Assembly: GCF_002196705.1 (NCBI RefSeq)
Contig: NZ_NADJ01000038.1
Coordinates: 303,420 to 367,419, forward strand
DNA: 64,000 bases
Source of the DNA: Desulfosporosinus sp. FKB
Lineage (GTDB): Bacteria; Bacillota; Desulfitobacteriia; Desulfitobacteriales; Desulfitobacteriaceae
Direction of reading: 5' to 3'
In this document: positions 1-51,976 of the stretch, in pieces
Numbering within the stretch: the first letter of the stretch is position 1
How the letters are laid out: every line of letters begins with the position of its first letter
Made by a program: the position numbers and the translations under genes
The notes under the pieces: generated by a model
Told to the model about the DNA's origin: nothing
The model's input: only the letters and a program-made list of their open reading frames with translations
Databases searched by the model: none

Positions 1-370
1 TATATTATAGAGGTTAATTTAGAGTAGGATTTTACATCCTACTCTTTTATTTTGTTTGCATTAATTTTGCATTAAAATAAGAAGCAATAAATTTTTACCC
101 AGGGTTTCGTTCTGGGGTAACCCGAAAGTATTAATACCTTAACCCCCGCCATCGCTCCTACATTCAAAGGCATTGCTCTCGCTCTAGGCGGAAAAGTGGA
201 CTATCATTAGCTCGATTATTTCCTATGAATAGACTTTAGCCTTTTTATTCCTGGGCTCTACTATTTTCTTACATATTTGTCGCAGAAGCATTAAGAATGT
301 CGGAAAGCAGGAAAATTTAAAATATCATCGAAGGGATAAAATCACACTCAAATAATAAGGAGGAATCAGA
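1..370. other. Non-coding left end of window
   Basis: No convincing gene is seen. It contains a strong hairpin terminator at 21-54 and, at 298-315, a TGTCGGAAAGCAGG motif that recurs at 4267. It probably lies close to the left end of the prophage, but no attachment core or tRNA half is present, so the boundary is outside the window. Confidence 0.6.
21..54 (+). terminator. Rho-independent terminator
   Basis: A perfect 10-bp stem AGAGTAGGAT / ATCCTACTCT with a TTTAC loop is followed by TTTATTTTG. It would end plus-strand transcription entering from the left, perhaps the tRNA-Trp or an upstream gene. Confidence 0.8.
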
Positions 371-658
371 ATGGGTTTTTTAGATAAAGCTAAGGAAAGC
401 TTAAAAGCTGAAATGAATAAACAAAGCGAAAAAGCTAAACAGGATCTATTAAGAAAAAAAGAAATGGATGAACAAGGAATTCCATATTGCCCAAAATGTT
501 TATCAACATCTGTTACCGCCAATAAAAAAGGAGTTGGCATAGGGAAGGCCGTTGTCGGTGGAGCTCTATTGGGTCCTGTTGGATTATTGGCCGGGGGAAT
601 CGGGAAAAATAAAATGGAGTTATACTGCATGAAATGCGGTCACAAGTTTAAGCCATGA
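371..658 (+). CDS. Zinc-ribbon protein with glycine-rich segment
   Basis: This 95-residue protein has a charged, probably helical N-terminus (residues 1-35), then CPKC and later CMKC, which would form one zinc ribbon. A Gly/Ala/Val-rich stretch (GVGIGKAVVGGALLGPVG) that could insert in a membrane lies between the two cysteine pairs. The start is set by AAGGAGGA seven bases upstream. Small zinc ribbons split by a glycine-zipper-like segment are common in Firmicutes and their phages, but I know of no assigned function. It overlaps the next gene by four bases (ATGA), so the two are probably translationally coupled. It lies in the cargo region of the prophage. Confidence 0.8.
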   Translation: MGFLDKAKESLKAEMNKQSEKAKQDLLRKKEMDEQGIPYCPKCLSTSVTANKKGVGIGKAVVGGALLGPVGLLAGGIGKNKMELYCMKCGHKFKP

Positions 659-861
659 ATGACATAATCGTCCCGGATTATACCCTCATCTCCGCGATTA
701 TATTACCGATTCTGAGCTTAATTACTGCATACTTCGTAATAAAAACAGCCGTCAGAAACGGAGTCCAAGAAGCTAATCGAAAAGCGTACGATTCACTTGA
801 ACGGATTGAAGATTTACTTAGAGGTTTAAACTTACAGCTAACAAAAAAGGAGAGCGATTAA
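655..861 (+). CDS. Small single-pass membrane protein
   Basis: This 68-residue protein has one hydrophobic helix (about residues 10-30, LISAIILPILSLITAYFVI) followed by a charged helical tail rich in Arg, Glu and Lys. The start overlaps the upstream stop (ATGA) and no separate strong ribosome site is visible, which suggests coupling. The orientation resembles an N-out/C-in anchored peptide. Function is unknown. It may work with the zinc-ribbon protein encoded just before it. Confidence 0.65.
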   Translation: MNDIIVPDYTLISAIILPILSLITAYFVIKTAVRNGVQEANRKAYDSLERIEDLLRGLNLQLTKKESD

Positions 862-868
862 GCTCTCT

Positions 869-1045
869 TTACTTTTGCCCATCAACCCTTGATTTCAATA
901 CTTTGTAGTATTCATTCAAAACCACATCAAGCATCTGGCTTGCAGTAACAACTTCTTGATCCGTGAGGCCTTTCCCTTCTTTAAGTTTTACCATGCTACG
1001 CCGCAGTTCTTCGATCTGCTTCATTATTTCTTCAAGTTCGCGCAT
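869..1045 (-). CDS. Spo0E-like aspartyl-phosphate phosphatase
   Basis: This 58-residue, all-helical protein carries the Spo0E signature SQMLD (residues 36-40) in the second helix, preceded by a LEEIMKQIEELRRSM helix. Spo0E family members dephosphorylate the response regulator Spo0A and so delay sporulation, acting in the cytoplasm. I chose the second Met because GGGAGGTC lies eight bases upstream; an in-frame ATG at 1060 is inside that ribosome site. It converges with the plus-strand pair to the left. In a prophage it could bias a lysogen against sporulation; that role is inference. Confidence 0.82.
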   Translation of the reverse strand: MRELEEIMKQIEELRRSMVKLKEGKGLTDQEVVTASQMLDVVLNEYYKVLKSRVDGQK

Positions 1046-1182
1046 ACTTTGACCTCCCATTTATATGGGAATAGTATGCCCAATATTGCTATGGAAATAA
1101 AAAGTCCCACCGTTATCGATGGGATCTTAGCAGGACGATTAATCTTCGTGAAATTATTTTTCCCGTATTTAACATAATTATG

Positions 1183-1431
1183 CTACATCTTCCACAACAT
1201 CCACTTACAAGTATTTAGTTCATACTTAAGTTCAAACCGTCTTAGCTCTCCATTAATTTCGCTCTGGCACTTGAACAATAGCATCCAATTGCCGGCAATC
1301 TTCTCCTCTTCCGTTGAGATGACCTGCTCGATCTTAAGTTCTTTGTCGTTGATTTTGAAGCGTACTGGATGAGGACGGCCGTTGAGTTCGGACCAGACAA
1401 GAACGGAGATCGGTGTGGCATAAATTTTCAT
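1183..1431 (-). CDS. Conserved hypothetical protein
   Basis: This 82-residue beta-rich protein begins MKIYATPISVLVWSELNG. It resembles small conserved hypothetical proteins I recall from clostridial genomes, but I cannot assign a function. It is the second gene of a two-gene minus-strand operon: its start overlaps the end of the adenine methylase by four bases. No membrane segment, metal ligand or catalytic motif is evident. Confidence 0.7.
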   Translation of the reverse strand: MKIYATPISVLVWSELNGRPHPVRFKINDKELKIEQVISTEEEKIAGNWMLLFKCQSEINGELRRFELKYELNTCKWMLWKM

Positions 1432-2210
1432 TTGTCTATCCCTATCTCATAATTGCTTATGAATAATTCTTTGGCAAAGCTGCTTTTATTGGTTCTGGAA
1501 ACTGAATATCTTACATCTATCTCTTTTATGTTAAAGCCTGAATACAGCGCTCGAATCTCCGGATGATCATTAATACTTAACAAAAACTTTCCCTTTATTT
1601 TAGCCAGACATTCCTTCAATCTAACATGATCATCCTTAGAAAATGGTTTACTCCCCTGACCTGTATAATCAGCCAACCCATAATAAGGAGGATCGCAGTA
1701 GAAAAACGTTGAAGAACGATCGTAACTTGATAAGATCTTTTCTACATCCCTTTTCTCTATAATAGTATTTATCAACCTGTCCTTCACAGAGGTTATGCTT
1801 TCCCTTACTCGTTCTAGAGTCATTGGTGGCTTCTTTAAAGGGCTAATCATAAAGCCCTTCATTAAGGCTCCAAAGCTAAAATGTAATAAGTAATAAAACC
1901 TGACCGCCCTTTTTACATCTGAGGTTCCGCTGAGATTTAGCGCCTTGTATTTCTGGAATATTTCTCTTGAAATAAGTAGATAATCGAATGCCTGAATGAA
2001 TTCTTCGGGCTTTTCTTTTACTACTCGAAAAAAATTAACTAGTTCAGAGTTTATGTCATTGTAGACTTCTACTTTAGAAGGAGATTTTTCAAAGAGGACC
2101 CAGCCAGCGCCTCCAAAGGGCTCGCAGTAACATATATGATCAGGTATCATTTTTACGATGGTTTTTCTTAGTCTATATTTGCCACCCATCCATTTAATTG
2201 GACTATTCAA
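1428..2210 (-). CDS. D12-class DNA adenine N6-methyltransferase
   Basis: This 260-residue protein has the Dam/D12 layout: a WMGGKYRLR N-terminus, AdoMet motif I PFGGAG (residues 31-36), and the catalytic DPPY (173-176) inside FFYCDPPYYG. It would methylate adenine at N6 in a short site, protecting phage DNA or altering regulation. No restriction nuclease partner is adjacent; the downstream gene is a small unknown. A second D12 methylase (6170-6997) is only 4 kb away and is not closely similar in sequence. Confidence 0.93.
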   Translation of the reverse strand: MNSPIKWMGGKYRLRKTIVKMIPDHICYCEPFGGAGWVLFEKSPSKVEVYNDINSELVNFFRVVKEKPEEFIQAFDYLLISREIFQKYKALNLSGTSDVKRAVRFYYLLHFSFGALMKGFMISPLKKPPMTLERVRESITSVKDRLINTIIEKRDVEKILSSYDRSSTFFYCDPPYYGLADYTGQGSKPFSKDDHVRLKECLAKIKGKFLLSINDHPEIRALYSGFNIKEIDVRYSVSRTNKSSFAKELFISNYEIGIDK

Positions 2211-2297
2211 GTCTTCACCACCAAACGTCTGTATTATTTGTTAGATCATTTGTTCTAATTATATAACTATAGTTCAAGGATGCCTAGCCCCAAAACG

Positions 2298-2324
2298 CAA
2301 AAAAATCCCCTCATTAAAGAGGGG
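2298..2324 (-). terminator. Terminator of the 2396-2923 gene
   Basis: On the minus strand CCCCTC-TTTAAT-GAGGGG is followed by ATTTTTTTG. It ends leftward transcription from the membrane protein gene. Confidence 0.85.
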
Positions 2325-2395
2325 ACATCAAGAAAAATGAGGGCCGCCGTTGATTTCGAATCAGGTGAAAACGGAGATGGGGGTGACAAAGATTT

Positions 2396-2923
2396 TCATG
2401 GGGTTGGCTCATCTTCCTTTTCTTGTAGCTTACGATATTCATTAACCATTCTGTCAAAAACGATAAATGTCAAAATAGCTCCATTGATTGCGGTTCTATA
2501 GTCATTTATATATTGACTCCTAATTAAATCAAACCCGCATTCTTTAAGATTCGTAAAAAGGGCTAAAATGAATGCTATAAAATAAACAACAAAGCGTAAT
2601 CGTAGTCGTGCTAAATCGGTAATAACACGAACTACAACCGAACCTTCGATATATCCTTTTGGACGATAAAGATCAGCTTCCATTAAAATTCCTGTTATTA
2701 CTGAAAGGTAATCTAAAATTTTATCTGGCAAATAAGCGAAAACTATCAAGGATAACAACAACGAAACAAAATTTGCAAATACAAAGTTACGCATAAGCAT
2801 ATTCAATAAATACCTAGTTAAGATAAAAAATCCACCGATAAAGGGTGAAATTGATAATAAGCAAATAATAACTATAAAAAATGAGGAAAACAATTCTTTA
2901 ATAAGATTATTCTTCTTATTCAT
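2396..2923 (-). CDS. Multi-pass membrane protein, unknown
   Basis: This 175-residue protein has at least three hydrophobic segments (about residues 8-35, 44-62 and 117-135), with a soluble loop between the second and third and an acidic C-terminal tail. The start at 2923 is chosen over an upstream in-frame start because AAAGGA sits six bases before it. It has its own terminator and appears to be a stand-alone cargo gene. No family is recognised. Confidence 0.7.
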   Translation of the reverse strand: MNKKNNLIKELFSSFFIVIICLLSISPFIGGFFILTRYLLNMLMRNFVFANFVSLLLSLIVFAYLPDKILDYLSVITGILMEADLYRPKGYIEGSVVVRVITDLARLRLRFVVYFIAFILALFTNLKECGFDLIRSQYINDYRTAINGAILTFIVFDRMVNEYRKLQEKEDEPTP

Positions 2924-2954
2924 TTTTATCCTTTCTTTTAGGCACACACTGTCA

Positions 2955-2980
2955 ACACCGATTTCATTCGGTGTCTTTTT
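2955..2980 (+). terminator. Plus-strand hairpin terminator
   Basis: A 7-bp stem ACACCGA/TCGGTGT with a six-base loop is followed by CTTTTT. It faces rightward although no plus-strand gene directly precedes it, so it may insulate the cargo genes or be left from a lost gene. Confidence 0.65.
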
Positions 2981-3059
2981 ATACTCAACGTTTGATCTTT
3001 TTCCTCAGTAAAGTAGAGAGCTGCTCGATGGTTACTGCAATATTTATTTGCTGTCTTCA

Positions 3060-3887
3060 TTACATTTCAGGTGTTTTAATTTTCTCAACAACACGTTTCG
3101 GTTGATCAGAGAATATTTTGTCCCAACGCTTTGCTATTCTAGGAAATTTCCGTTCAATAAAGAGCTGAATAATTGATTTATCCAATTTCCATGAAGTTGA
3201 TGCTATATATCTGGTCGCTAACATCATAGAAAAACCCCATAATGGAAAAATGATATAACCTATTGCCGAGAAACACAATGATTTGATGTCTTTGGGGATC
3301 ATGTGGTTTCCAATCAAACTATCCCATAAAATTATGTAAATTAAGAACAAGGACGCAAAGGATAAAGTCTTAAATGTCTCGTAGCAGATGCGACTAAATT
3401 CATGAAAGAATCTTGAAAGAAGACCTTTTCCAGAAATGAAACGCATCCAATCATACTCTCTAAACATAACCATTGTATTTATTCTGTACTCAGTTTTAAC
3501 TCTAGAAGAAAACAGATGAAAACAAATCCAAAAGTCATTCCAGTTTTCCTGTGTTCGCTGATTATAAAAAGTATAGTATTTATCTTCAAGCTGATAATAT
3601 TGTTCCCAAATAGACTTGTTTCCTATTTGGTATATCATTGTTGATGCTGCCCCATATTTATTAAAAAAATCTTTAAGGAGTCGTTGCCTCTCACATGAAC
3701 GAAATTGTCTTTCGATAATTCTGATATCGTGAAAAAGAGGACTAGATACTTTATTAAGGTTTTCCTGAACTTGACCAAAGAACCTATCAATCTTCCGAGT
3801 CCTTACTCCAAACAAATACCCTAAAATACCACCTAGTACTGTCGATAATATCGAAGGTAAAAATTGCAGAACTAAATTTAGGCTCAA
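3060..3887 (-). CDS. Membrane protein with cytoplasmic helical domain
   Basis: The N-terminus is hydrophobic (LSLNLVLQFLPSILSTVLGG). A long soluble, Arg/Phe/Tyr-rich region and two further membrane segments follow (near FASLFLIYIILW and AIGYIIFPLWGFSMML), then a basic tail. I favour the TTG start at 3887, preceded by GGGGTGA at good spacing; a GTG at 3935 is the alternative. The family is not recognised. Monocistronic position and AT-rich composition fit phage cargo, possibly superinfection exclusion, but that is only a guess. Confidence 0.65.
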   Translation of the reverse strand: MSLNLVLQFLPSILSTVLGGILGYLFGVRTRKIDRFFGQVQENLNKVSSPLFHDIRIIERQFRSCERQRLLKDFFNKYGAASTMIYQIGNKSIWEQYYQLEDKYYTFYNQRTQENWNDFWICFHLFSSRVKTEYRINTMVMFREYDWMRFISGKGLLSRFFHEFSRICYETFKTLSFASLFLIYIILWDSLIGNHMIPKDIKSLCFSAIGYIIFPLWGFSMMLATRYIASTSWKLDKSIIQLFIERKFPRIAKRWDKIFSDQPKRVVEKIKTPEM

Positions 3888-3944
3888 CTTTATCACCCCA
3901 TTTCTAAAATATACAATATGTATCACTAACACCACAACGGAGAT

Positions 3945-4208
3945 TTAACGTTCCCAAACCAACTCTTCATCATAACCCCAAGGGCAATCCCCTAAACTCA
4001 TAAGTACATATATTCTAGAGTATACTACGCCCGCCTCGATTAAAGGTTGTAGCTGATCCATACCAACAATATCAGCTATCTTTGCTAACTTACGCTCTTT
4101 GCGGTAATAAGCTAGATTTTTGTAGATTTGGGATGGGCCTGAACATTGGGATCGCTTCTCTTTAGCCCAATTATGATATATGCCTTGAAGTAAGCTTCTC
4201 ACACACAA
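3945..4208 (-). CDS. Small hypothetical protein, doubtful
   Basis: This is an open frame of up to 87 codons starting at a TTG without a clear ribosome site. It is rich in charged residues, with IADIVGMDQLQPLIEAGVVYSRIYVLMSLG in the middle, which reads like a small helical regulator. It lies just upstream of the membrane protein gene on the same strand. Start and reality are both uncertain. Confidence 0.4.
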   Translation of the reverse strand: MCVRSLLQGIYHNWAKEKRSQCSGPSQIYKNLAYYRKERKLAKIADIVGMDQLQPLIEAGVVYSRIYVLMSLGDCPWGYDEELVWER

Positions 4209-4266
4209 GGGATTCTTTTTATGAAGAAGGGCTTAATGCTAAATCGAATCGTAAAATAGAACATTT

Positions 4267-4284
4267 TGTCGAAAAGCAGGGAAA
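4267..4284 (+). promoter_or_regulatory. TGTCGAA (Spo0A-box-like) repeated motif
   Basis: TGTCGAAAAGCAGGGAAA here and TGTCGGAAAGCAGGAAAA at 298-315 match at 15 of 18 positions. Each lies upstream of a plus-strand gene. TGTCGAA equals the consensus 0A box bound by Spo0A-P. Regulatory use is inferred. Confidence 0.4.
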
Positions 4285-4426
4285 TCTTTCTTCAAAGAGA
4301 ACTGCAAAAAGCAGTACCCAAATTATTTACTGAGCTACGATTGTGACTTGTTGCACCCGTTACGCTGATCAAGCGGGAGAAGCTTTGAGGCCTATTAATT
4401 AGTGAATGTGGTAGGAGGAACCAGGG

Positions 4427-6094
4427 GTGTTAGAAAAAATTTCAATAATACAGTATAGAAAGATTAAGAATATTGAATTTAATTTCACGAAATATATTAA
4501 CGTAATTTCCGGAACAAACGGAACTTGCAAAACTTCCTTGCTGTATTTAATTAGTAACTCATTTCAGACAGTAAATAGTAGGAATTGCCCTTTGCTTCAA
4601 GATAAAAAATGCCTAGAAATAATTAAAAAAATCAATAATACGATAAACCCCAAAATAGAAAGCCTAACTCGCGGCGATAAACAATATAACGACCCTGCTA
4701 TCGGTCATAGCGGCACATTATTCACAACACATTATTTTAATCACCCAACTTTAGCATTTAGAAAGCACAATTCTCCTGAAAGCAATAGATATTCAGTTAA
4801 GCCATATTATCCAAAAGGTTCTCATGACAAACTACCTAGTTGCCCAGTTATATACTTAGGTTTATCTCGTCTAGTACCTTTTGGTGAATACCAGAACGAC
4901 AATGCCATAGAAGGAATTAAAAAATCATTACCTAATGAATATCAAGAGGAAATTATGCGGCTGTACGAACAATTGACCGGATTATCGATTTCTTCCATAA
5001 GCCCGCAAAAAATGGGCGATATAAAAATTAGATCAGAGTTTAATAGCACACACGATGGTATCGACTCTAATACAATATCAGCTGGTGAAGATAACTTATT
5101 TATAATTATTACTGCTATTGTATCCTTGAAATACTATTACGAAAATATTACAGGTAGCTCTAACTCCGTTGAAAGTATTCTCTTAATTGATGAACTCGAT
5201 GCTACGCTCCACCCTTCCGCACAAATTCAATTATTGGAACTATTTCATCAATATTCAAGTGATTACAAGATTCAATTCTTTTTTACTACACATAGTTTAT
5301 CTTTGCTAGAGTATGCACTTTTAAAAAAACACAATGTTGTTTATTTAATTGATAATATAACTACAGTTCACAAATTGGACTCGCCAGATATTTATAAAAT
5401 CAAGATGTTTCTTGAATCTAAAACACACACTGACATTTATACAAATAGATCCATTCCATTATTTATGGAAGATGATGAAGCAAGAATATTTTTGAATACA
5501 ATTTTTGACTATTTCTGCGACAAATTTCCTGACAAATTCCCTAGAGTTCGTAGATTCTTTCATTTAGTTGATGTTAAACTTGGGGCTGAAAACTTAATTA
5601 ATCTTTTTAATGATAATCATCTATTGAAATCAATCTTACAATCGATTTGTATTCTAGATGGAGATCAGAATGGAAAAAGAGAACTACGTAAACACATTAT
5701 TATTTTACCTGGCGGGAAGTCACCAGAAGAACTAATAATGCATTACTCCATTGAGTTATTCGACAACGACGATCCCTTTTGGACAGAACCAACAATCTTA
5801 GACCTTGGTTTCGGAAAAATCTATTATAGAGATAAAATCCGTCCTGATATAGATAATATCACAAACACGCTCGAGGATTTGTTGAAAAAAAAGGAATCTA
5901 CTAAAGGAATCAAACGAGAATTGAATAAAGCTACCTTTAATAAACATAAGGAGTTCTTTCAACTTTTATTCAAACACTGGGTAAATAGTAATGAACACGA
6001 GGAAGAACTAGATAAATTCCATACAGATTTGTACCATATGTTCAAAAAGGTTGCAGAATTTAATGGTATAAACCCTCATGAATGGAATAACTAA
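4427..6094 (+). CDS. AAA ATPase with TOPRIM-like C-terminus (OLD-like nuclease)
   Basis: This 555-residue protein has an ABC/RecF-type Walker A GTNGTCKTS (residues 29-37), an SAGED signature-like stretch (218-222), Walker B ILLIDELD (251-258) and a switch histidine in FFTTHS (286-291). The C-terminal half has FMEDDEA (346-352) and ILDGDQNG (409-416), acidic motifs that fit a TOPRIM metal site. This is the layout of OLD-family ATP-powered nucleases. The GTG start has AGGAGGA seven bases upstream. A D12 adenine methylase follows 75 bases later, so the pair may be a nuclease with a protective methylase. Specificity is unknown. Confidence 0.8.
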   Translation: MLEKISIIQYRKIKNIEFNFTKYINVISGTNGTCKTSLLYLISNSFQTVNSRNCPLLQDKKCLEIIKKINNTINPKIESLTRGDKQYNDPAIGHSGTLFTTHYFNHPTLAFRKHNSPESNRYSVKPYYPKGSHDKLPSCPVIYLGLSRLVPFGEYQNDNAIEGIKKSLPNEYQEEIMRLYEQLTGLSISSISPQKMGDIKIRSEFNSTHDGIDSNTISAGEDNLFIIITAIVSLKYYYENITGSSNSVESILLIDELDATLHPSAQIQLLELFHQYSSDYKIQFFFTTHSLSLLEYALLKKHNVVYLIDNITTVHKLDSPDIYKIKMFLESKTHTDIYTNRSIPLFMEDDEARIFLNTIFDYFCDKFPDKFPRVRRFFHLVDVKLGAENLINLFNDNHLLKSILQSICILDGDQNGKRELRKHIIILPGGKSPEELIMHYSIELFDNDDPFWTEPTILDLGFGKIYYRDKIRPDIDNITNTLEDLLKKKESTKGIKRELNKATFNKHKEFFQLLFKHWVNSNEHEEELDKFHTDLYHMFKKVAEFNGINPHEWNN

Positions 6095-6169
6095 ATAGTA
6101 TAGTGCCTTCTGTTTTCTATGGCCATGCATGTGAATTTATGTTATATTCAACGTGAGGAGGTGTACACC

Positions 6170-6997
6170 ATGCCAGCAACAGTAACTCCTTTACGATATC
6201 CTGGCGGAAAAACTAAATTATATGATTTCGTTCTTGACATAATAAAAAGAAACCATCTCGAAAAATGCACCTATATCGAGCCGTTTGCTGGCGGAGCTGG
6301 TCTCGCCCTAAAGCTATTATTCAAAAAGAATGTTTCCAAACTAATACTGAATGATTTAGATAATGCTGTCTATTCCTTTTGGTATAGTATACTAAATTAT
6401 ACGGAAGAATTTTGTAGATTAATCGAGCTAACCTCAATAACCATTGAAGAGAGAGAACATCAAAAATATATCTACAAAAATCAAAACATATTTTCAACTT
6501 TAGAAGTCGGCTTTGCAAGTTTCTTCCTCAATCGGACAAATATATCTGGTATCCTTCACGGAGGTCCGATTGGCGGTGCCGATCAGAAAGGTTCAAATAA
6601 ATTAGATGCTCGATTTAATAAAAAGACTTTGATCGAAAAGCTTCATCATATCTCTTTGTATAAAAATCATATCCGGTTTTACAATTACGATGTAAACGAA
6701 TTCATAGAAAGAATCATACCTGGCGAGGATCCGCGTAAATCCTTTATATACTTTGACCCACCTTATGTAAAAAAAGGACCTCTCCTTTATATGAATTGCT
6801 TTAAGCCTACTGACCATAGTAGATTAGCGGAAGAGATCTTACGCTCTAATAACAACTGGATTGTAACTTATGATAATTGCGAATTTATATCGAACCTCTA
6901 TAGAAACTTTAAACAGGAAATAATAAGCATAAATTATAGCGCAGGTAGCTCAAAAAAAAGTGAAGAAATAGTAATATATAGCCCTACTATTCACTGA
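6170..6997 (+). CDS. D12-class DNA adenine N6-methyltransferase
   Basis: This 275-residue methylase has RYPGGKTKL at the N-terminus, motif I PFAGGAG (38-44) and DPPY (196-199), the marks of D12/Dam enzymes. The start at 6170 is fixed by GGAGGTG eight bases upstream; the longer frame from 6119 has no such signal. It sits just downstream of the TOPRIM ATPase on the same strand and probably shares its transcript. Its methylation may mark self DNA for that nuclease; this is inference from gene order. Confidence 0.92.
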   Translation: MPATVTPLRYPGGKTKLYDFVLDIIKRNHLEKCTYIEPFAGGAGLALKLLFKKNVSKLILNDLDNAVYSFWYSILNYTEEFCRLIELTSITIEEREHQKYIYKNQNIFSTLEVGFASFFLNRTNISGILHGGPIGGADQKGSNKLDARFNKKTLIEKLHHISLYKNHIRFYNYDVNEFIERIIPGEDPRKSFIYFDPPYVKKGPLLYMNCFKPTDHSRLAEEILRSNNNWIVTYDNCEFISNLYRNFKQEIISINYSAGSSKKSEEIVIYSPTIH

Positions 6998-8188: not shown

Positions 8189-9052
8189 TTAGCCTAGATA
8201 TTTTTTCACAGCAGCCGCCGTACCAAACTTATCATCGCCGCTCAGCAGCGTTTCGTTTGGGTGCCCCGTGGTTGCTCCACCAACGACGATTAGGTGCACA
8301 GCTTTCATAGCATCAGCTGGCGGAGTAGCGTTATGTGATACCCGCACAAACAAAGCGCAGTTACCATTCCTCCTTGAAACGTCAATTGCTGACCAAAAAT
8401 CTTCCTCAGTATCCATTAAAACTGCTACATCTAACACTTCTTCGCTCCCCTTTTCTTCGGTAGTATTTGCCGTTGCTTCCGCGGTCCATAATCCTGCATC
8501 TTCATTTACGTAGTCCTGATCAACCTTAAACCCTGCTACTAGTACATTATTGCTGTATTGATAGATGTGATTTGGGGCCTTGTCTCCATAGGACCAGGCG
8601 TAAGTTTGAAAGAACTTATCCGGCGGGTAATCTGCGCCTTTCATGGCTTTGAGCACTGCAAATGACCCATAAACACCTACTTGATATTTCCCGGTCAGAA
8701 CCATATGAACGCCCCGGAAATACTCTTTTATAGTGGACATATCCCCCGGTTGGGCCTCAAAGTCTACCGCAAAATAAATACATACGCCCTTTAGAACTCC
8801 TAAAGCTTGAGCCTGGGCAAGAGCATATTGTGCATCAGATACCCCTCGTAAATAATTGAAGTAACTTGCCTTAGTGGGATCTAGTTCCAGGATAAGCCAC
8901 AAGGCCAAGCCTGCGTCTAAGATCGACTTTACTTCTGCAGCAGTTAGGCCATAATTACCTCCAAGATAACGCCCTACGGCTTTTACTCCCGCACTTTTCA
9001 GGGCTTGCACGTTCGCCGCAGTTAACCTGGTCGCGCAATCAATACCGTACAT
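8189..9052 (-). CDS. Endolysin with DUF1906 glycoside-hydrolase-like domain
   Basis: Residues 1-190 form a DUF1906 (Rv2525c-like) TIM-barrel domain: MYGIDCATRL at the start, VGRYLGG, LILELDP, YFAVDFEA and GVYGSF strand motifs with Asp/Glu at their ends. A linker and a C-terminal domain of about 80 residues (VAVLMDTEEDFWSAIDVSRR...HLIVVGG) resembling a cell-wall-targeting module follow. It would cut peptidoglycan at lysis. The true start is 9052, with AAAGGAG seven bases upstream inside the end of the holin gene; the longer frame is excluded. It is flanked by holins. Confidence 0.87.
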   Translation of the reverse strand: MYGIDCATRLTAANVQALKSAGVKAVGRYLGGNYGLTAAEVKSILDAGLALWLILELDPTKASYFNYLRGVSDAQYALAQAQALGVLKGVCIYFAVDFEAQPGDMSTIKEYFRGVHMVLTGKYQVGVYGSFAVLKAMKGADYPPDKFFQTYAWSYGDKAPNHIYQYSNNVLVAGFKVDQDYVNEDAGLWTAEATANTTEEKGSEEVLDVAVLMDTEEDFWSAIDVSRRNGNCALFVRVSHNATPPADAMKAVHLIVVGGATTGHPNETLLSGDDKFGTAAAVKKYLG

Positions 9053-9053
9053 A

Positions 9054-9452
9054 TTAATCTCCTTTCTCTTGTAATTGCTGAAAAATACTTTTAAATTTTG
9101 GCGGCATTCTGAGGCCAATCTTTCCAACGTTCTCAATCATAGAAATCCCTTCACGCCCGGCATAGTAGTACATCGCCATCGTTCTCAAGACCGGGCCGGA
9201 GTTTCCAAAAAGCTTATCCAGAAGAACTGCTAAGGCGACAAGAGAAAGAATAACAATCTTTCTAATGCCGCCCCAAAACATAACCTCGGAATTTACTTTC
9301 TTCTGCCTCACCGCCCCCAAGAAGCCGGTAATATAGTCAAGAACCATAAGGTAAACAAGAACCTTAAGCGCGATATCCCACCCGCCACACCAAGCCGTAA
9401 TGGCCGTCCCTATCGCGGCAAATGATGTTTTGAAAATGAATTTTTCGTTCAT
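9054..9452 (-). CDS. Phage holin, toxin-secretion/holin_4 family
   Basis: This 132-residue protein has three or four hydrophobic helices, including TSFAAIGTAITAWCGGWD, LVYLMVLDYITGFLGAV and IVILSLVALAVLLD. The DYITGF motif and length are typical of holin family 4 (TcdE/Cph1). It would form membrane lesions that release the endolysin encoded next to it. The start at 9452 follows GGAGG with six-base spacing. The next gene's ribosome site is embedded in its last codons, so holin and endolysin are coupled. Confidence 0.9.
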   Translation of the reverse strand: MNEKFIFKTSFAAIGTAITAWCGGWDIALKVLVYLMVLDYITGFLGAVRQKKVNSEVMFWGGIRKIVILSLVALAVLLDKLFGNSGPVLRTMAMYYYAGREGISMIENVGKIGLRMPPKFKSIFQQLQEKGD

Positions 9453-9531
9453 ATCTGCCTCCAAGTATTAGAATTGCCCTGGGTACCCTAGTCTCCGTCA
9501 CCTCCTGCGGATTTCGGGCTCAGATTCCAGG

Positions 9532-41996: not shown

Positions 41997-42030
41997 GTTT
42001 TTCTCCCCTCTTTTCTTATAGCTTGAGTTA

Positions 42031-42059
42031 ATAGTAGTCTACTAAAAGTAGATTGTCAA
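42031..42059 (-). promoter_or_regulatory. Early leftward promoter with operator 2
   Basis: On the minus strand TTGACA, a 17-base spacer, then TACTAT. The spacer contains the operator TCTACTAAAAGTAGA (42038-42052, read on plus). Repressor binding would block the polymerase directly. Confidence 0.85.
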
Positions 42060-42090
42060 CAACAAAAACTATATTTTTTCTATCTTTTGG

Positions 42091-42133
42091 TTGATATTTT
42101 TCAACATATCAATTATAATCTACTTAAAATAGA
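42091..42133 (+). promoter_or_regulatory. Repressor promoter with operator 3
   Basis: TTGATA (42091-42096), 17-base spacer, TATAAT (42114-42119), followed at the start-site region by TCTACTTAAAATAGA (42119-42133). The half-sites differ, suggesting weaker binding and autoregulation of the repressor. Confidence 0.83.
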
Positions 42134-42157
42134 CAGGGAAATAATGGAGGTAAAACC

Positions 42158-42481
42158 GTGGGAATTAGTGAAAATATTAAGGCCCTACGCGAAAAATATG
42201 GACTTACACAACAGGATCTAGCTGAGATAGCTGGTGTATCAAATAAGGCGGTATCAGCTTGGGAAACAGGTCAGAAAGAGCCCCGCATGGGAGCAATTGA
42301 AAAAATAGCTAATCACTTCAAGATTAGAAAGAGTAACTTAATTGAAGAAGATGGATTAGCAGAATCCGAAACAGATCTGCCAAAGACGATCGCAGCGCAT
42401 TTTGAGGGGGATGATTATACACAAGAAGAACTACAGGAAATTTTAGAATATGCAAAATACATCAAGTCAAAGCGGAAATGA
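42158..42481 (+). CDS. CI-like XRE repressor
   Basis: This 107-residue protein has an N-terminal helix-turn-helix (NIKALREKYGLTQQDLAEIAGVSNKAVSAWETGQKEP) and an acidic, helical C-terminus (TQEELQEILEYAKYIKSKRK) for oligomerisation, as in short Firmicutes phage repressors. It should bind the TCTACTTWAAGTAGA operators to keep the prophage silent. The GTG start has GGAGGT seven bases upstream. Its end overlaps the ImmA-like gene. Confidence 0.92.
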   Translation: MGISENIKALREKYGLTQQDLAEIAGVSNKAVSAWETGQKEPRMGAIEKIANHFKIRKSNLIEEDGLAESETDLPKTIAAHFEGDDYTQEELQEILEYAKYIKSKRK

Positions 42482-42965
42482 GAGTGATGTCGGTTTGGTT
42501 TTGTCTAATTCATTATTGATAGAAGTAGAAAAACGAGGAATAAGTATTGAGGAACATTGTTTTAAAACAAAAAAGCTTAAGGGGCTCTATGTAGATAATG
42601 TAATCATTCTTAATCCGGCAAATATCAAGAATAGCGCAGAAAGACGTTGCGTTTTATGCGAAGAACTTGGACATTATGAAACAACTGATGGCAACATCCT
42701 AGACTTATCAGATATTCGAAATCGAAAACAGGAAAAACGTGCACGAAATTGGGCATACGAAAAACTAATACCTCTCCAGAGCATTGTGGAAGCTTCCAAA
42801 GAGGGAGTTTGCAACAGATATGAACTCGCAGAATTTTTAGATGTTACAGAGGACTTCCTGGACGAGGCAATAAAGCATTACAGAGAGAAATATGGACTTT
42901 ATTCGGAATGGGAAAGCTTCATAATATATTTTGATCCGTTAGGGGTACTTGAGACTTACAACTAG
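42450..42965 (+). CDS. ImmA/IrrE-like putative metallopeptidase
   Basis: This 171-residue protein has RRCVLCEELGHYETTDG (residues 65-81). EELGH replaces the HELGH zinc motif, so the first zinc His is a Glu, a variant I associate with phage members of this family. A C-terminal winged-helix-like region (RYELAEFLDVTEDFLDEAI) follows. ImmA proteins cleave the adjacent repressor on induction. It overlaps the repressor gene by 32 bases, which supports the pairing. Confidence 0.85.
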   Translation: MQNTSSQSGNESDVGLVLSNSLLIEVEKRGISIEEHCFKTKKLKGLYVDNVIILNPANIKNSAERRCVLCEELGHYETTDGNILDLSDIRNRKQEKRARNWAYEKLIPLQSIVEASKEGVCNRYELAEFLDVTEDFLDEAIKHYREKYGLYSEWESFIIYFDPLGVLETYN

Positions 42966-43065
42966 TATTACTTTAAGATAATGTCCCCTTATATATATTT
43001 TTTTACCATTTTGGGAACGTATGTTTCTAATAATGGGAACCTACATTCGAAAGGAGATAACTCAG

Positions 43066-44415
43066 ATGGCCCATGCAGAATTCAAGGGGATAGGAACCAA
43101 AGGGCAGGCTAAATTTCGCCTCTATTTCGACGGCCCCAAAAAAGCCGATGGCAGACGAAACCAGAAGAAGGAATCCTATTCCATCGACCCCCTACCCGAG
43201 AAAGCCGGCGCTATTGCTAATGCTGCAAAGAATAGGCAAAAAGGCATTGCAACTAAAACTGAAAACCTCCTATTAGAGCGATTCGAGAAAAAAGCTACTG
43301 AATCAGCTGAGACTGAAGCAAAGAAAAGAGAAGATGAAATTAATAAACCGAACTATGTTGAACCGGTTGTAAACAAAGAACACTTTGTGAATCATTCTGC
43401 TCGTTGGCTGAAATATAAAGCTGGCACTGCACGCAAGGGAAAGCGTCAGCCTAAGACCGTCTGGAGATATGAGCAACTACTTCAGCGTATCGATGATTTT
43501 TTTCAGAGCGATTTTGTTGAAGACATAAACATTGATAGGGTTGAGGAGTTCTATGCTTGGTTAGCAAGGCAACCCAAAAAAAGGGGGAAAAATCAAAAGA
43601 AAGATCCCGAAGGTTTTCTCTCGGAACGGACGCAGTGGCATTATCACCGCTGTCTCTATTACATCTTAGAGTATGCTGTCGCTCGTGAAAAGTTAGCCTC
43701 TAACCCTTGTCGCCATGTCAGACCACAAGAAATACCTGATGATCTAGACGAAAAAAGGCCAGACTCTTACACGGCTGACGAGGCAGCCAAAATACGCGAA
43801 TTAATGGAGAAGGAACCTCTAAAGAATAGAGTTTTTGTACAGATCGCCCTAGAGATTGGACCACGCCCAGAAGAAATACATGCCCTCAAGTGGGTAGATA
43901 TTGATTTCAAAAACCGGCTTATAGACTTTAATAAAACGTGGCAATATATCCCCAAAAAAGGATCTTTTGAAAAGCCGCATTTAAAAAACAAATCTAGTCG
44001 CCGTAAAATTAAGGTATCGGCGAGCACCACATTTCTTCTGAAGCAACTAAAAAATGAGCAGGAAGTCGAAGCAAAGAAAGCAGGTAGCAAATGGGTCAAT
44101 AGCGGTGCTTTATTTGTAAATTGGCAAGGGAAACAACTATCTGCCACTTGGGCCGGTGACTGGTGGAGGAAGTGGATACTTACAACAGATCTGCCAGTTA
44201 AAACTTTATATTGCCTGCGCCATACGTGTCTTAGTCTTCTTCTTGATGCTGGAGCAAACCCACTCGAGGTAGCCCGTATGGCAGGACACTCTAACGCAGA
44301 AATGCTCTGGAGGGTTTACGGGCACGCCGTAGAAAAAGAACATTTTGCCGGTGCAGATATCATGGAGTCAATCATGAAGAAGAAACAAAAAGAACCTTCT
44401 CCGCAACTAAGTTAA
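43066..44415 (+). CDS. Phage tyrosine integrase (element 1)
   Basis: This 449-residue integrase has an unusually Lys-rich N-terminal arm-binding domain with charged insertion (residues 60-105) and a core-binding domain (about 105-220). The catalytic domain has Arg267 (IALEIGPRPEE), Arg385 in YCLRHT, His408 in AGHSN and Tyr418 (RVYGH). The usual first His of HxxR is Tyr. It integrates the phage in tRNA-Trp. The start at 43066 follows AAAGGAG. The gene ends 136 bases before the attachment core, as expected. Confidence 0.94.
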   Translation: MAHAEFKGIGTKGQAKFRLYFDGPKKADGRRNQKKESYSIDPLPEKAGAIANAAKNRQKGIATKTENLLLERFEKKATESAETEAKKREDEINKPNYVEPVVNKEHFVNHSARWLKYKAGTARKGKRQPKTVWRYEQLLQRIDDFFQSDFVEDINIDRVEEFYAWLARQPKKRGKNQKKDPEGFLSERTQWHYHRCLYYILEYAVAREKLASNPCRHVRPQEIPDDLDEKRPDSYTADEAAKIRELMEKEPLKNRVFVQIALEIGPRPEEIHALKWVDIDFKNRLIDFNKTWQYIPKKGSFEKPHLKNKSSRRKIKVSASTTFLLKQLKNEQEVEAKKAGSKWVNSGALFVNWQGKQLSATWAGDWWRKWILTTDLPVKTLYCLRHTCLSLLLDAGANPLEVARMAGHSNAEMLWRVYGHAVEKEHFAGADIMESIMKKKQKEPSPQLS

Positions 44416-44551
44416 AAGGTGGAACAAAAGTGGAACTTTCGATTCAAAAACAAGCCCAAATCAACATTACGATACCTGAAACTAAAATTTCAAAACATGG
44501 ATATACCAATGGTTTCAGCACTTAACCTAAACATACAAAACGAAAAGGAAT

Positions 44552-44599
44552 GGTCTCCAAAACCGTCAGTGAGGGTTCGACTCCTTCATCCCCTGCCAA
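44552..44599 (+). repeat. Attachment core, tRNA-Trp 3' half (element 1/2 junction)
   Basis: GGTCTCCAAAACC with CCA anticodon in a 7-base loop, a T-arm GAGGG-TTCGACT-CCTTC, the acceptor ATCCCCT and GCCA. This is the 3' part of a tRNA-Trp. No 5' half precedes it; integrase DNA does. It is identical to 63790-63837 over 48 bases. Confidence 0.93.
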
Positions 44600-44738
44600 T
44601 GACGTTTAAAACGTAGAGTACATAAGGGTTTCGTACATTTTTCGTGAATGTTACGAGACTCTTTTTGATTTGTCTGATTATTCGAGACCGTTGGTGTGGT
44701 TTGCTCCTCATCTAAATATTAGAAAGTGAGGAATACCA

Positions 44739-45731
44739 ATGGTTAGACAACGATTAACGGTCAAGGACAACAACGGTTTTAAACCGTCTGTTATTCGTGA
44801 CCGACGTGAGCAGACCGTCCTATCAACACAAGATTTCCTAGAATTACACGGCAAGTTCATCCAGCACAAAGCCTTAGAAGGTCTGGCTCCACGGACTCTA
44901 AAGGACCATCTTACCCATATGGGGTACTTCAAAAAATTTCTCTTTGAAGACCAACGGTTTAGTCTAGACCGTTATATTGACGTGGACGTGTTTCGAGGGT
45001 ATTTAAGCCATATGATTTCCGATAAGAGTCTAAAACCATGCACAATTAACATTAGATTACGGACCCTAAAATGTTTTTTGAAATGGTTGTTCGATGAAGA
45101 TTATATCGATTTTAACTACTCCCTAAAATTAAAACTAGTTAAAACCCCCGAAGACACTATTAAGCCTCTTTCCGATTCGGACACCCGTAAAATGTTAAAA
45201 GCCCCAGACAGAAGTACGTATTCAGGCTTGAGAGACTTTTGCCTAATGGTTCTAATGTTAGACTGTGGAATCAGAATCGGTGAGGCCGTAAAATTAACGG
45301 TCAACGATGTTGATACAAGGCTTGGTTTAATTAATGTACGTCCTGAAAATGCCAAAACACGAGTTTATCGGCAATTGCCCATAAGCCAAAAGACTTGTAA
45401 ACTCTTGATCGAGTTAATCAAGATTGCCCAAGATAATGACTCAGAGTACGTTTTTCAATCCACTTTTGGTGGGATGGTGAGCAAGGATAACATTATTGCT
45501 TATTTTGAAAAGTATGGCAAGAAAGCCGGGGTCAAGGTTCGGTGTACCCCTCACATTTTTAGACATACTTTTGCAACAAACTTCGTCAGGTCAGGTGGGG
45601 ATATCTTTACACTACAAAAAATACTAGGACACTCCACCCTTGTAATGTGCCGTAAATATATTCAACTAGATAACTCAGACTTAGTTCGGAAACATCACCA
45701 AGCTAATCCATTAGATAAATATATTCAATAA
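44739..45731 (+). CDS. Tyrosine recombinase/integrase (element 2)
   Basis: This 330-residue XerC/D-like recombinase has an N-terminal SAM-like domain (FLELHGKFIQHKALEGLAPRTLKDHLTHM). Catalytic residues lie in CGIRIGEAVKL (Arg), TPHIFRHTFATNF (His and Arg), LGHSTL (His) and CRKYIQL (Tyr). It begins 139 bases right of the left core and is oriented away from it, so it is the integrase of the second element. It is not a close copy of the first integrase although both target the same tRNA. Confidence 0.93.
   Translation: MVRQRLTVKDNNGFKPSVIRDRREQTVLSTQDFLELHGKFIQHKALEGLAPRTLKDHLTHMGYFKKFLFEDQRFSLDRYIDVDVFRGYLSHMISDKSLKPCTINIRLRTLKCFLKWLFDEDYIDFNYSLKLKLVKTPEDTIKPLSDSDTRKMLKAPDRSTYSGLRDFCLMVLMLDCGIRIGEAVKLTVNDVDTRLGLINVRPENAKTRVYRQLPISQKTCKLLIELIKIAQDNDSEYVFQSTFGGMVSKDNIIAYFEKYGKKAGVKVRCTPHIFRHTFATNFVRSGGDIFTLQKILGHSTLVMCRKYIQLDNSDLVRKHHQANPLDKYIQ
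44809..44827. repeat. Putative arm-type site, left copy
   Basis: AGCAGACCGTCCTATCAAC matches AGCAAACCGTCCTATCGAC at 63709-63727 (17 of 19). One copy lies near each end of element 2; here it is inside the recombinase gene. ACCGTC also occurs in the cores. Confidence 0.45.
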
Positions 45732-46106
45732 TGAGCTATAAGAAGTGAGACACTCACCTTACTTTTGTCGAATTAAACTGTGTAATCGTTACGGAAATAA
45801 ACCCCACCGACCCTACCCAACCAAAACAACATCCAAGAGGTAGAGGTAAAACCAACCAAGATCCTCCAATCTACCTACGTAAGGTGTCATATTCAAGTGG
45901 TGGCTAATTCCAGACATTAATTAACTCGTCTACACCATACAGTTACTTTACTTTAGGAAATCAAGAAAGCAGTCGATAACTGGGTACAATCTTCCCATGT
46001 CGGCTGCTCTAATGATCTCGGTTTAAAATTAAAACTGAACAGTATTAATTAACAATTTGTCCCCCTTTTAGCTAAGATTTTTATGACATTGGCAATTTGA
46101 GTAAAT
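45732..46106. other. Intergenic gap, 375 bp
   Basis: A GTGAG-ACA-CTCAC hairpin near 45746-45760 with a short T-run may end recombinase transcription. The rest is C-rich then AT-rich DNA with no convincing frame. The genes on either side converge here. Confidence 0.5.
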
Positions 46107-48038
46107 TTACTCCAATAGTTTATTAACGTCTTTAAAAAATTTTTCAAATCGTTCTAATGTAATTTCTAGATCCGGCCATTCAATTTCCGGGTGTTCCACT
46201 AGGTAAACAGATGGTTGAAAATGATCAAACTCTGGAACTTCTGGGGGCAACGTCCCAAAGTATTCTTCCACCTTCTTAACAATCCTCATCGACTTGCATT
46301 CACTTTTTGCTGCATTAAATTCACACCCGCCTTCCAATTTATAACAATGGTTGATAAGGCTACTATAAAAATTTATACCTATTAAATCCTCTACGTCAGC
46401 CTCTGATTGTCCTGCATACATTTCGGCAGAAAAGACATGTCCCTGCCTTAATAATTCTGACTCTCTTAAACTCCTAATCTTCTTTTTATCCCCTTCTGCA
46501 TAATCAGTTAGAACTGCTACATGTAATTTATTCCCACCAAAAAGAGCCACGAAACTAGAAATTTTATCCACACCACCAGCTGGAGCAACTGTCCACCTAG
46601 GGTCAAGTCCTTCTCTATTTCTTTTCTTCAATTGAGTAGTAAACCATCTTATGTAAAGGAGGTCTGAAGGTCCCTCAACTAATAATGTATTTTTTCCAAC
46701 AAATAATGTTTGGGTTATATCATAACCTAAGGCAGCCTGTAATGGGAATATAGTATCAGAATCGGTTGCAAGTACATGATCCCCAACTTTAGTTCCAAGA
46801 ACTTCCCCCTCAATCGAAGAAAGATCCTCGACTGTTCTAACACTTAGTATGTTTTCTGCATCTATCATAAATGGAGAATGAGTTGTATAAATAACCTGAT
46901 ACTTTGGTAGGAGCTTTTCCTTAATAAATCGAAGTAAATCACTCTGTGCTTTGGCATGTAAATTTAGACCAGGTTCATCTAATAGCAATAAAAGGTTATC
47001 TCCGTAAACATTTTGAATGTGTGAAAACCATGCCAAAAATGAAAAGAACCAAATGAATCCTGAACTTCGTTCATCGAAATTGACAGATACTTCATGACGT
47101 TTATTGTAAATACGAGTCCTTAAAATATTACCTGTATTAAATGGTGGTGGATCATTTGGTCTTCCAACATCGAATCTAATTTGAACAGACAGATCCTTGT
47201 TTTGACTCCAATACTCGAAGATTTGTTTAGATATACGATTTGAAGTAGACTCAAGCTTTGCAATCAATCGTTCAGCTTTAGTTGCTGAAGAAAATGTTTC
47301 TGGTGTAACCCCTGCAAGATATAAGAGAGCAACAAAGGTCTTTTCTTGGGTGTTCAATTGGTTTTGACTACGTTTCTGAATAAATTGTTCATATTGGACT
47401 TGTCCAGGAAGAGTTTGATATTGGGAAAAATATAGAATTTTAGGAATGTACTCTATAAGTAACTTATTTGCAACTTCACTAACGGACCGATCAGGAAATA
47501 TCTTAATCAGCATTTGGAATAACTTGTCCTGTTCGTCGTTTCTTCCTTGTATCTGTTCCAAATGGTTAATTAAGGCTTTTACATCTTCAAAATTGCCATC
47601 AACAGGCATCTCTTCAATGCCACATTGTTCTAAATAGTAGTTTATTACAGACTGCTGATTTATTTCTATCTTAAGGATATATTCATTGTCATAACCTTTT
47701 AATATTACTATTGTAGGGCTCAACAGTGAACCTCTACCCAATACCTGTTCGATTTGTTCAACCTCTTTGTCCGTCAATTCCCATTGTGTATTAAGCACGT
47801 TTGAACGATCTACAAGTAATCCTTCTTCAAACTCCGACAGGAACCTTCTCGGATACTCTTCAATATCAAATTTGTCCTGACTTAAATCTACAGGATTTAG
47901 TTTATACAAGGCTTCTAATAGACTACTTTTTCCAGATTCGTTCTTCCCCACAAGACAAGTGACGGGTTCAATTGTAAATTCTCCAGAATCCTCAATGCAC
48001 TTGTAGTTTTCAATACGTAATGTTTTAAGAATCACCAA
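46107..48038 (-). CDS. OLD-family ATP-dependent endonuclease
   Basis: This 643-residue protein has Walker A GKNESGKSS (31-39), a signature RSSGF (324-328), Walker B LLLLDEPG (350-357) and His387 in TTHSPF. A TOPRIM domain with LLVEGPSD (452-459) and VLTDYAEGD (509-517) follows, the metal-binding Glu and Asp of OLD nucleases. OLD proteins act against other phages or rec-deficient states. No UvrD-like helicase is next to it, so it is the stand-alone class rather than Gabija. The GTG start has AGGGGGGA upstream. Confidence 0.92.
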   Translation of the reverse strand: MVILKTLRIENYKCIEDSGEFTIEPVTCLVGKNESGKSSLLEALYKLNPVDLSQDKFDIEEYPRRFLSEFEEGLLVDRSNVLNTQWELTDKEVEQIEQVLGRGSLLSPTIVILKGYDNEYILKIEINQQSVINYYLEQCGIEEMPVDGNFEDVKALINHLEQIQGRNDEQDKLFQMLIKIFPDRSVSEVANKLLIEYIPKILYFSQYQTLPGQVQYEQFIQKRSQNQLNTQEKTFVALLYLAGVTPETFSSATKAERLIAKLESTSNRISKQIFEYWSQNKDLSVQIRFDVGRPNDPPPFNTGNILRTRIYNKRHEVSVNFDERSSGFIWFFSFLAWFSHIQNVYGDNLLLLLDEPGLNLHAKAQSDLLRFIKEKLLPKYQVIYTTHSPFMIDAENILSVRTVEDLSSIEGEVLGTKVGDHVLATDSDTIFPLQAALGYDITQTLFVGKNTLLVEGPSDLLYIRWFTTQLKKRNREGLDPRWTVAPAGGVDKISSFVALFGGNKLHVAVLTDYAEGDKKKIRSLRESELLRQGHVFSAEMYAGQSEADVEDLIGINFYSSLINHCYKLEGGCEFNAAKSECKSMRIVKKVEEYFGTLPPEVPEFDHFQPSVYLVEHPEIEWPDLEITLERFEKFFKDVNKLLE

Positions 48039-48232
48039 AATCCCCCCTTAATCCGGTCAATATAATGGCATAATTCTCTATTTTACATTAAATACCTCTA
48101 TAAATTTTTAAATATATTCGTAGTAATTGATTTAAACGATGAAATTCACTTGACGTAATGTAAGAGATGTTTTATGAATGCAAAATTCTCGTAAGAACGG
48201 GTAAGGATTAACAATATCGTACCGTAAGGTGT

Positions 48233-48375
48233 ACCTTTTGATACGGAAATCAATCTTTCAAGAATCTAGTCATATCAGCATTTCGGAAACGTCAATTACG
48301 TAGCAAAAGGTTCTAAAGTAAATTATGGTACGTATCATTATCTTTATTGACCTTTTGATACATCAATGATACTAT
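48233..48375 (+). promoter_or_regulatory. Resolvase promoter with repeated sites
   Basis: TTGACC (48347-48352), 17-base spacer, TACTAT (48370-48375). ACCTTTTGATAC occurs at 48233-48244 and 48350-48361, each followed within a few bases by ATCAAT. The second copy overlaps the -35, so the resolvase may bind there and repress itself, as res sites do. Confidence 0.55.
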
Positions 48376-48407
48376 TGGATCAGATAAGTGTATTGGAGGT
48401 CTTGACA

Positions 48408-49043
48408 ATGAACGGTGCAAACAAAATCTATGGATATGCCAGAGTATCGACTAAAGAGCAGAATTTGGACAGGCAGATTGCAGAGTTGATGAAATATGTA
48501 GCCAACGAAAGGGACATCATTACAGACAAGGCCAGTGGTAAAAACTTTAACCGTTCAGGTTATATGATACTTAGAGAAACACTACTTAGGCCAGGAGATA
48601 CACTCGTTATTAAGGAGCTTGATCGGCTGGGCAGAGATATGTGCATGATAAAAGAAGAATGGAACACCTTGATCAAAATGGGGGTTGATATTATCGTTAT
48701 AGATACCCCCATGCTGAACACTAACGGCAAGGACACTCTTGAAAAGACTTTGATTAGCAATATCGTGTTTGAGCTTTTGTCGTATATGGCACAGAAGGAA
48801 CGAGACAAGATTAGATCTAGGCAAGCAGAAGGCATAGCAGCCTTAAGGGCAAGGAACAATGGCAAGGGCATTGGCAGACCTGTGATTATTGAACTCTCGA
48901 ACAGGTTTACAGAGGTTTACAATCAATGGAAGGCAGAAGAGATTACAGCAGTAAAAGCAATGGAACTATGTGGACTAAGTAAGGCAACGTTCTACAGAAA
49001 AGTAAAAGAGTATGAAGCTCAGCAAGCAAAAAAGCAGGGGTAG
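48408..49043 (+). CDS. Serine resolvase/invertase
   Basis: This 211-residue protein begins YGYARVSTKEQNLDRQIAEL near residue 8, with the nucleophile Ser14. DKASGKNFNR, LVIKELDRLGRDM and QKERDKIRSRQAEGIAALRARN (E-helix) follow, and then a helix-turn-helix (SKATFYRKVKEYEAQ). It is the Tn3-type small serine recombinase family, acting in resolution or inversion. GGAGGTC eight bases before ATG 48408 sets the start. No inverted repeats of a transposon were found around it. Confidence 0.93.
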   Translation: MNGANKIYGYARVSTKEQNLDRQIAELMKYVANERDIITDKASGKNFNRSGYMILRETLLRPGDTLVIKELDRLGRDMCMIKEEWNTLIKMGVDIIVIDTPMLNTNGKDTLEKTLISNIVFELLSYMAQKERDKIRSRQAEGIAALRARNNGKGIGRPVIIELSNRFTEVYNQWKAEEITAVKAMELCGLSKATFYRKVKEYEAQQAKKQG

Positions 49044-50300: not shown

Positions 50301-50312
50301 AAATATTCCTCC

Positions 50313-51974: not shown

Positions 51975-51976
51975 TG

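Follow-up and report, generated by a model that had tools for sequence, protein, structure and literature searches.

The analyzed window, a stretch of 64,000 nucleotides of Desulfosporosinus sp. FKB (contig NZ_NADJ01000038.1, positions 303,420–367,419), carries two neighboring genes on the plus strand, namely a gene for an OLD-type ABC-ATPase/Toprim protein (555 aa, GTG start, 4427–6094), followed after an intergenic gap of ~75 bp by a gene for a D12-class N6-adenine DNA methylase of the PD-Lambda-5_B family (275 aa, ATG start, 6170–6997). The two genes are located at one end of a prophage that encodes terminase, portal, head, sheath and tape measure proteins along with an integrase (43021–44412), where they adjoin the lysis cassette (endolysin, 8189–9136; holin, 9054–9464) on the strand opposite to that of the late genes. 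The GC content of the pair is 33% compared to 42% in the remaining prophage, which fits recently acquired cargo. No attachment-site repeats of at least 14 bp were found between positions 1–4430 and 42000–52000 of the window. Near the same prophage end, a second D12 methylase is encoded on the minus strand (1428–2210); it belongs to the Dam subfamily (TIGR00571, 141.9 bits, above the cutoff), is not closest to PD-Lambda-5_B and has no obvious nuclease partner. In another species of the same genus (locus L006), an ATPase that is 66% identical to the one in the window, and identical to a protein of Desulfosporosinus nitroreducens (L037), is also encoded together with a methylase beside phage-type genes. 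Across the loci that we collected, a phage repressor-like HTH gene lies directly upstream of the pair in 20 (e.g., L111 and L171) and an integrase is found near the pair in 15; these genes mark a recurrent prophage cargo slot.

The ATPase gene, which is preceded by the ribosome-binding site AGGAGG (4413–4418, plus strand), encodes all the motifs expected of the OLD family, and their conservation could be assessed in an alignment of 65 diverse relatives. The Walker A motif (residues 29–36, GTNGTCKT, 4511–4534) retains G29, N31, G32 and K35 in at least 90% of these sequences, whereas S218 and G220 of the ABC signature (residues 218–223, SAGEDN, 5078–5095) and D255 and E256 of Walker B (residues 251–256, the LLIDE region, 5177–5194) are invariant. 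Within the Toprim domain, E348 together with D349 (5468–5473) and D411 and D413 of the DxD motif (residues 411–413, DGD, 5657–5665) are likewise invariant, and K501 (5927–5929) is conserved in at least 90% of the relatives. In BpOLD, the metal-A site consists of the Toprim glutamate and the DxD motif and is assisted by a distant lysine, K562 (PMC6755086). Going by their order along the chain, with no superposition involved, E348, D411/D413 and K501 would be the natural counterparts of these catalytic residues, K501 being the candidate equivalent of K562. The preliminary description, which was made from the letters of the sequence, had already recognized an OLD-like ATPase with Walker A beginning at residue 29 and DGD at 411–413; the DGD motif is where it had been placed, Walker A reads G29-T-N-G-T-C-K35-T, and the conservation of both across the 65-sequence alignment excludes chance motifs.

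The family assignment is further supported by Pfam matches (AAA_15, 5.8e-16; AAA_21, 3.1e-9) and by an AlphaFold model (pLDDT 87, pTM 0.79) for which the closest solved folds are those of retron-Eco8 OLD, PtuA, GajA and TsOLD (6p74), with E-values of ~1e-10 to 1e-11. The global TM-scores in these comparisons are low (~0.3) because the domain arrangements differ, so that the fold match supports membership in the OLD family and not in a particular class. Taken together, alignment and model identify the window ATPase as an OLD-type protein, as originally proposed. It also matches, over the full length and with 365 bits, the phage protein family phrog_3940 (annotated as ‘unknown function’). The PADLOC matches, judged from the best 25 of 96 weak ones, reach superfamily-level scores only (40–62 bits), and we accordingly rejected the assignments to PARIS, Septu (PtuA), Gabija, HEC-04 and MADS.

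The methylase frame opens at 6119, and the start that fits the homologs is the ATG at 6170, which follows the ribosome-binding site GAGGAGG (6155–6161, plus strand). Thus, the earlier claim of a D12 methylase on the same strand with a strong ribosome site stands, as do the outer coordinates of the pair, with the gene proper now delimited to 6170–6997. The protein matches MethyltransfD12 in Pfam (4.3e-22), contains the invariant catalytic motif DPPY (residues 196–199, 6755–6766) and yields an AF2 model (pLDDT 91.6) for which the closest solved folds are 7m6b, E. coli Dam and DpnM. In PADLOC it is assigned to PD-Lambda-5_B (PDLC04018, 1e-109, 364 bits), an identity that the preliminary description had missed. 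Residues 120–151 (LNRTN.SGI..GG.IGG..Q.G...D.RFNK, 6527–6622) sit at what we take to be the place where Dam-fold enzymes bear the target-recognition hairpin, and from Dam-fold topology this block is a putative recognition loop. Most of its columns are at least 80% conserved in ATPase-partnered and ParB-partnered methylases alike, that is, whichever the partner, suggesting a recognition site that is common to the whole methylase family.

To characterize the association of the two genes, relatives of the ATPase were gathered from genome and virus collections and evaluated against profiles of the ATPase and of the methylase; family members score above 250 bits and generic ABC ATPases 30–70 bits, a clean separation. 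The resulting 134 non-redundant members were found by ATPase patterns and are not a random sample of life, but this mode of collection introduces no bias towards finding methylases. The D12 methylase is encoded within 500 bp of the ATPase in 109 of the 134 (on the same strand in 102), and adjacent or in the same small cluster in 117. Among the eight additional clustered loci, six have a ParB/Srx-like gene that is interposed or divergent (L056, L077, L079, L098, L100, and L152), one has a frameshifted ATPase (L001), and in the last one the methylase is found at 3.8 kb (L048). Contig ends cut off six of the 134 loci. In same-strand pairs, the gap, measured between stop-to-stop frames, is mostly below 50 bp (median 13; at most 100 bp in 100 of 107), and no one-frame fusions of ATPase and methylase were reported among the loci examined. 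In 398 unselected genomes of the same phylum, the methylase is present in 18 and the ATPase in nine, and all nine ATPase genes directly adjoin the methylase. Conserved neighborhood was a test that the preliminary description had set beforehand for its own reading, and both the sample of 134 and the unselected genomes bear it out.

These data bear on the possibility that the two are separate cargo genes that became neighbors via a shared cargo slot, the methylase serving as an anti-restriction device for the prophage DNA and the OLD-type gene excluding other phages in the manner of P2 Old. Both genes do occupy a typical prophage cargo position, the methylase family is also found in loci that lack the ATPase, and the Dam-type methylase at 1428–2210 stands alone. 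Nevertheless, the pairs are found in Bacillota, Pseudomonadota, Bacteroidota, Actinomycetota, Planctomycetota, Myxococcota, Deferribacterota and one methanogen, and on chromosomes, phages and plasmids alike; short gaps maintained over many bacterial phyla and an archaeon, together with the fact that methylases lacking the ATPase are nearly always adjoined by another effector gene, render independent cargo highly improbable.

The identity of these other effectors becomes apparent in the loci that were anchored on the methylase. In these, the neighbor is PD-Lambda-5_A in 29 cases, the OLD-type ATPase in 22, both in three and something else in 11, the latter including HerA- and NurA-type genes. 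Methylases of the PD-Lambda-5_B family beside a HerA-type ATPase and/or NurA-domain genes were observed in L023, L286, L287, L288, and L292, with a DUF87 match in L286 and a NurA match in L288; the HerA/NurA-type partners constitute a third effector class. Furthermore, methylase, ATPase and ParB-type genes are all present in ~22 loci, in several of which they form tight operons (L040, L060, L063, L083, and L097). The ParB-type protein of the three-gene loci is independently called PD-Lambda-5_A by PADLOC, in which the best scores of bona fide PD-Lambda-5_A partners range from 144 to 834 bits.

Mapping the partner on the methylase tree requires 35 changes, and the partner differs even between closely similar methylases, as in L034 (ATPase) vs. 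L202 (ParB), at 83% identity, and L189 (ATPase) vs. L217 (ParB), at 81%. The methylases of Vibrio phage ValB1MD-2 and V. maritimus share 86% identity and suggested a further partner swap, which was discarded as not clean given that a split ParB-type gene adjoins the phage methylase; the difference between these two loci is a gain or loss of the ATPase. Pairwise identities of the ATPases and methylases are only loosely correlated (Spearman 0.18): methylases that are 80% identical can be paired with ATPases that are just 24% identical, and between the window and L138 the respective values are 70% and 27%. Hence the ATPase and the methylase are not closely co-evolving. The effectors around the PD-Lambda-5_B-family methylase, whether ParB/Srx-like, OLD-type, both or sometimes HerA/NurA-type, are exchanged for one another. 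This exchangeability argues that what the effectors read is common to the methylase family.

Loose coupling and free exchange of partners would also fit a sensor that does not have to match a recognition sequence, and they underlie the main rival explanation, a PARIS-like guard. Under this scenario, the OLD-type protein would combine sensor and toxin: it would lie in wait for a phage protein, such as one acting by DNA mimicry or by blocking or degrading the methylase, and kill the cell upon encountering it, with the methylase serving as bait or restraint and not as a sequence-matched self mark. There is a precedent in AriA of PARIS, which, upon sensing Ocr, releases a Toprim nuclease. The methylase is absent beside the ATPase in 11 of the 134 relatives, which form two clades, and in the larger of these, two ATPases are encoded inside type I restriction operons (L071 and L061), one adjoins a C5 methylase and an NgoPII-type nuclease (L113) and one a C5 methylase (L107). 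Location within complete restriction operons is what is expected of a guard, although these contexts also imply that four of the methylase-less relatives still accompany DNA-methylation systems. Against the guard scenario, even very distant ATPases are specifically linked to one methylase family, the Toprim domain is fused to the ATPase, and the score of the protein (59.6 bits) is much too low for an assignment based on AriA. We consider a guard unlikely.

Broken copies of the pair are relevant to another alternative, according to which the two genes are retained mainly because loss of the methylase is lethal, as in post-segregational killing, phage defense being secondary. The ATPase is mostly the broken gene: it is disrupted beside an intact methylase in ~6 loci, and the reverse case was encountered once. 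In one paired locus, a transposase-type insertion lies inside the ATPase (L157:3500–6278). The single opposite case, L067 (2172–4966), in which a transposase-type insertion interrupts the methylase and the ATPase frame is still open, is a counter-example that argues, if mildly, against loss of the methylase being strictly lethal. The numbers are small and some of the breaks may be sequencing errors (a homopolymer in L051); we rejected the asymmetric decay as proof of lethality given that the cases are too few and some involve insertion sequences or homopolymers, and an addiction module accordingly appears a rather far-fetched explanation. On a human gut phage scaffold (L003:4018–5134), remnants of the ATPase and the methylase are joined through an internal deletion.

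We therefore favor, with reasonable though not high confidence, the interpretation that the two genes function as a single unit, namely an anti-phage system carried by the prophage, with a mode of action resembling that of a compact restriction-modification system. Under this interpretation, the D12 methylase would mark adenines of its own DNA, that of both the host and the prophage, with methylation as the presumed self mark. The ABC ATPase of the OLD-type protein might sense, or load on, DNA that lacks the mark, such as incoming phage DNA, and the Toprim domain would then nick or cut nucleic acid or abort the infection, so that the protein either acts on unmarked DNA or is unleashed by it. 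In addition to the adjacency in both samples, the one-unit reading is supported by the invariance of the active sites of both proteins, the similarity of the ATPase fold to retron-Eco8 OLD, GajA, TsOLD and PtuA, the membership of the methylase in the family that belongs to PD-lambda-5, a system with proven anti-phage activity, and the nature of the known methylase partner classes, which are nuclease- or ATPase-type proteins. Some observations run counter to it. The loose co-evolution would be odd for proteins that have to agree on a single recognition sequence, except if this site is family-wide; the open ATPase frame beside the interrupted methylase in L067 and the 11 ATPase relatives without a PD-Lambda-5_B-type methylase are not readily accommodated either. 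The restriction-like two-gene system envisaged in the preliminary description is thus partly supported, namely in the conserved neighborhood and the retained catalytic residues; that the nuclease spares methylated DNA and cuts unmethylated DNA is presumed.

The best reading of the combined evidence is a PD-lambda-5-like system with methylation-based discrimination of self from non-self and exchangeable effectors, in which the window represents the OLD-type variant. A more far-reaching possibility, which we put forward tentatively and with considerable doubt, is that a single methylase family with a near-invariant putative recognition block provides a common self mark that is read by several unrelated effectors, i.e., a plug-in immune platform instead of a matched pair. 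If so, the OLD-type, ParB/Srx-like and HerA/NurA effectors could be swapped or stacked while the mark remains unchanged. If methylation is indeed the self mark, it would offer a simple handle on how OLD proteins tell self from non-self. We found no earlier description of an OLD protein paired with a D12 methylase in the open-access literature searched, and the pair is a widespread, newly recognized version of PD-lambda-5-type systems in which the effector is of the OLD type. Given that PADLOC provides only weak superfamily matches for the ATPase, defense finders can be expected to annotate many such loci simply as orphan methylases.

Three classes of OLD proteins are distinguished, typified by P2 Old and TsOLD (class 1), GajA (class 2) and the retron OLD (class 3). 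The window protein shares with all of them the N-terminal ABC ATPase with Walker A, signature and Walker B and the C-terminal Toprim domain with the glutamate, DxD and a conserved lysine, but differs in its partner, which is a D12 methylase as opposed to none in class 1, a UvrD-like helicase in class 2 and a reverse transcriptase in class 3. As this partner is conserved, the protein is not a class 1 OLD, a single gene lacking such a partner. Neither a UvrD-like GajB helicase of Gabija nor a retron reverse transcriptase was detected among the neighboring ORFs scanned. With PARIS, the pair shares an AAA_15-type ABC ATPase and a Toprim nuclease; however, in the window these belong to a single protein and a methylase is present, the score with the AriA model is as low as noted above, there is no Pfam match to DUF4435, and AriB is not among the PADLOC matches listed. 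This sets the system apart from Gabija, retrons and PARIS, and the original suggestion that it departs from the usual OLD and PARIS arrangements holds. The OLD nucleases thereby gain a further class, defined by the methylase partner.

The pair resembles type II restriction-modification systems in having a stand-alone adenine methylase, with the D12 DPPY active site and the Dam fold, that adjoins a nuclease-type gene, but departs from them in that the latter encodes an ATPase-Toprim protein of no known restriction enzyme family and coevolves loosely with the methylase. The closest relationship is with PD-lambda-5 (Vassallo et al., 2022, PMC9519451), which protects E. coli against most of the phages tried in assays that used a host without the mrr region; its discoverers describe it as an RM+Abi system in a compacted prophage version. 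Both systems employ the same methylase family, are compact and often prophage-encoded, and have one large partner gene next to the methylase. The partner of PD-lambda-5 itself is a ParB/Srx-like protein of 440–510 aa that matches neither ABC ATPases nor Toprim domains, whereas that in the window is the OLD-type ATPase-Toprim protein, and no PD-Lambda-5_A gene is found beside the window pair among the neighbors scanned with Pfam and PADLOC (for the ATPase, among the best 25 of 96 matches). With the methylase in the PD-lambda-5 family and a different partner, the window pair is a modified form of an arrangement already known; it links phrog_3940 to PD-lambda-5 defense and presents PD-lambda-5 as one among several effector versions built around a common methylase.
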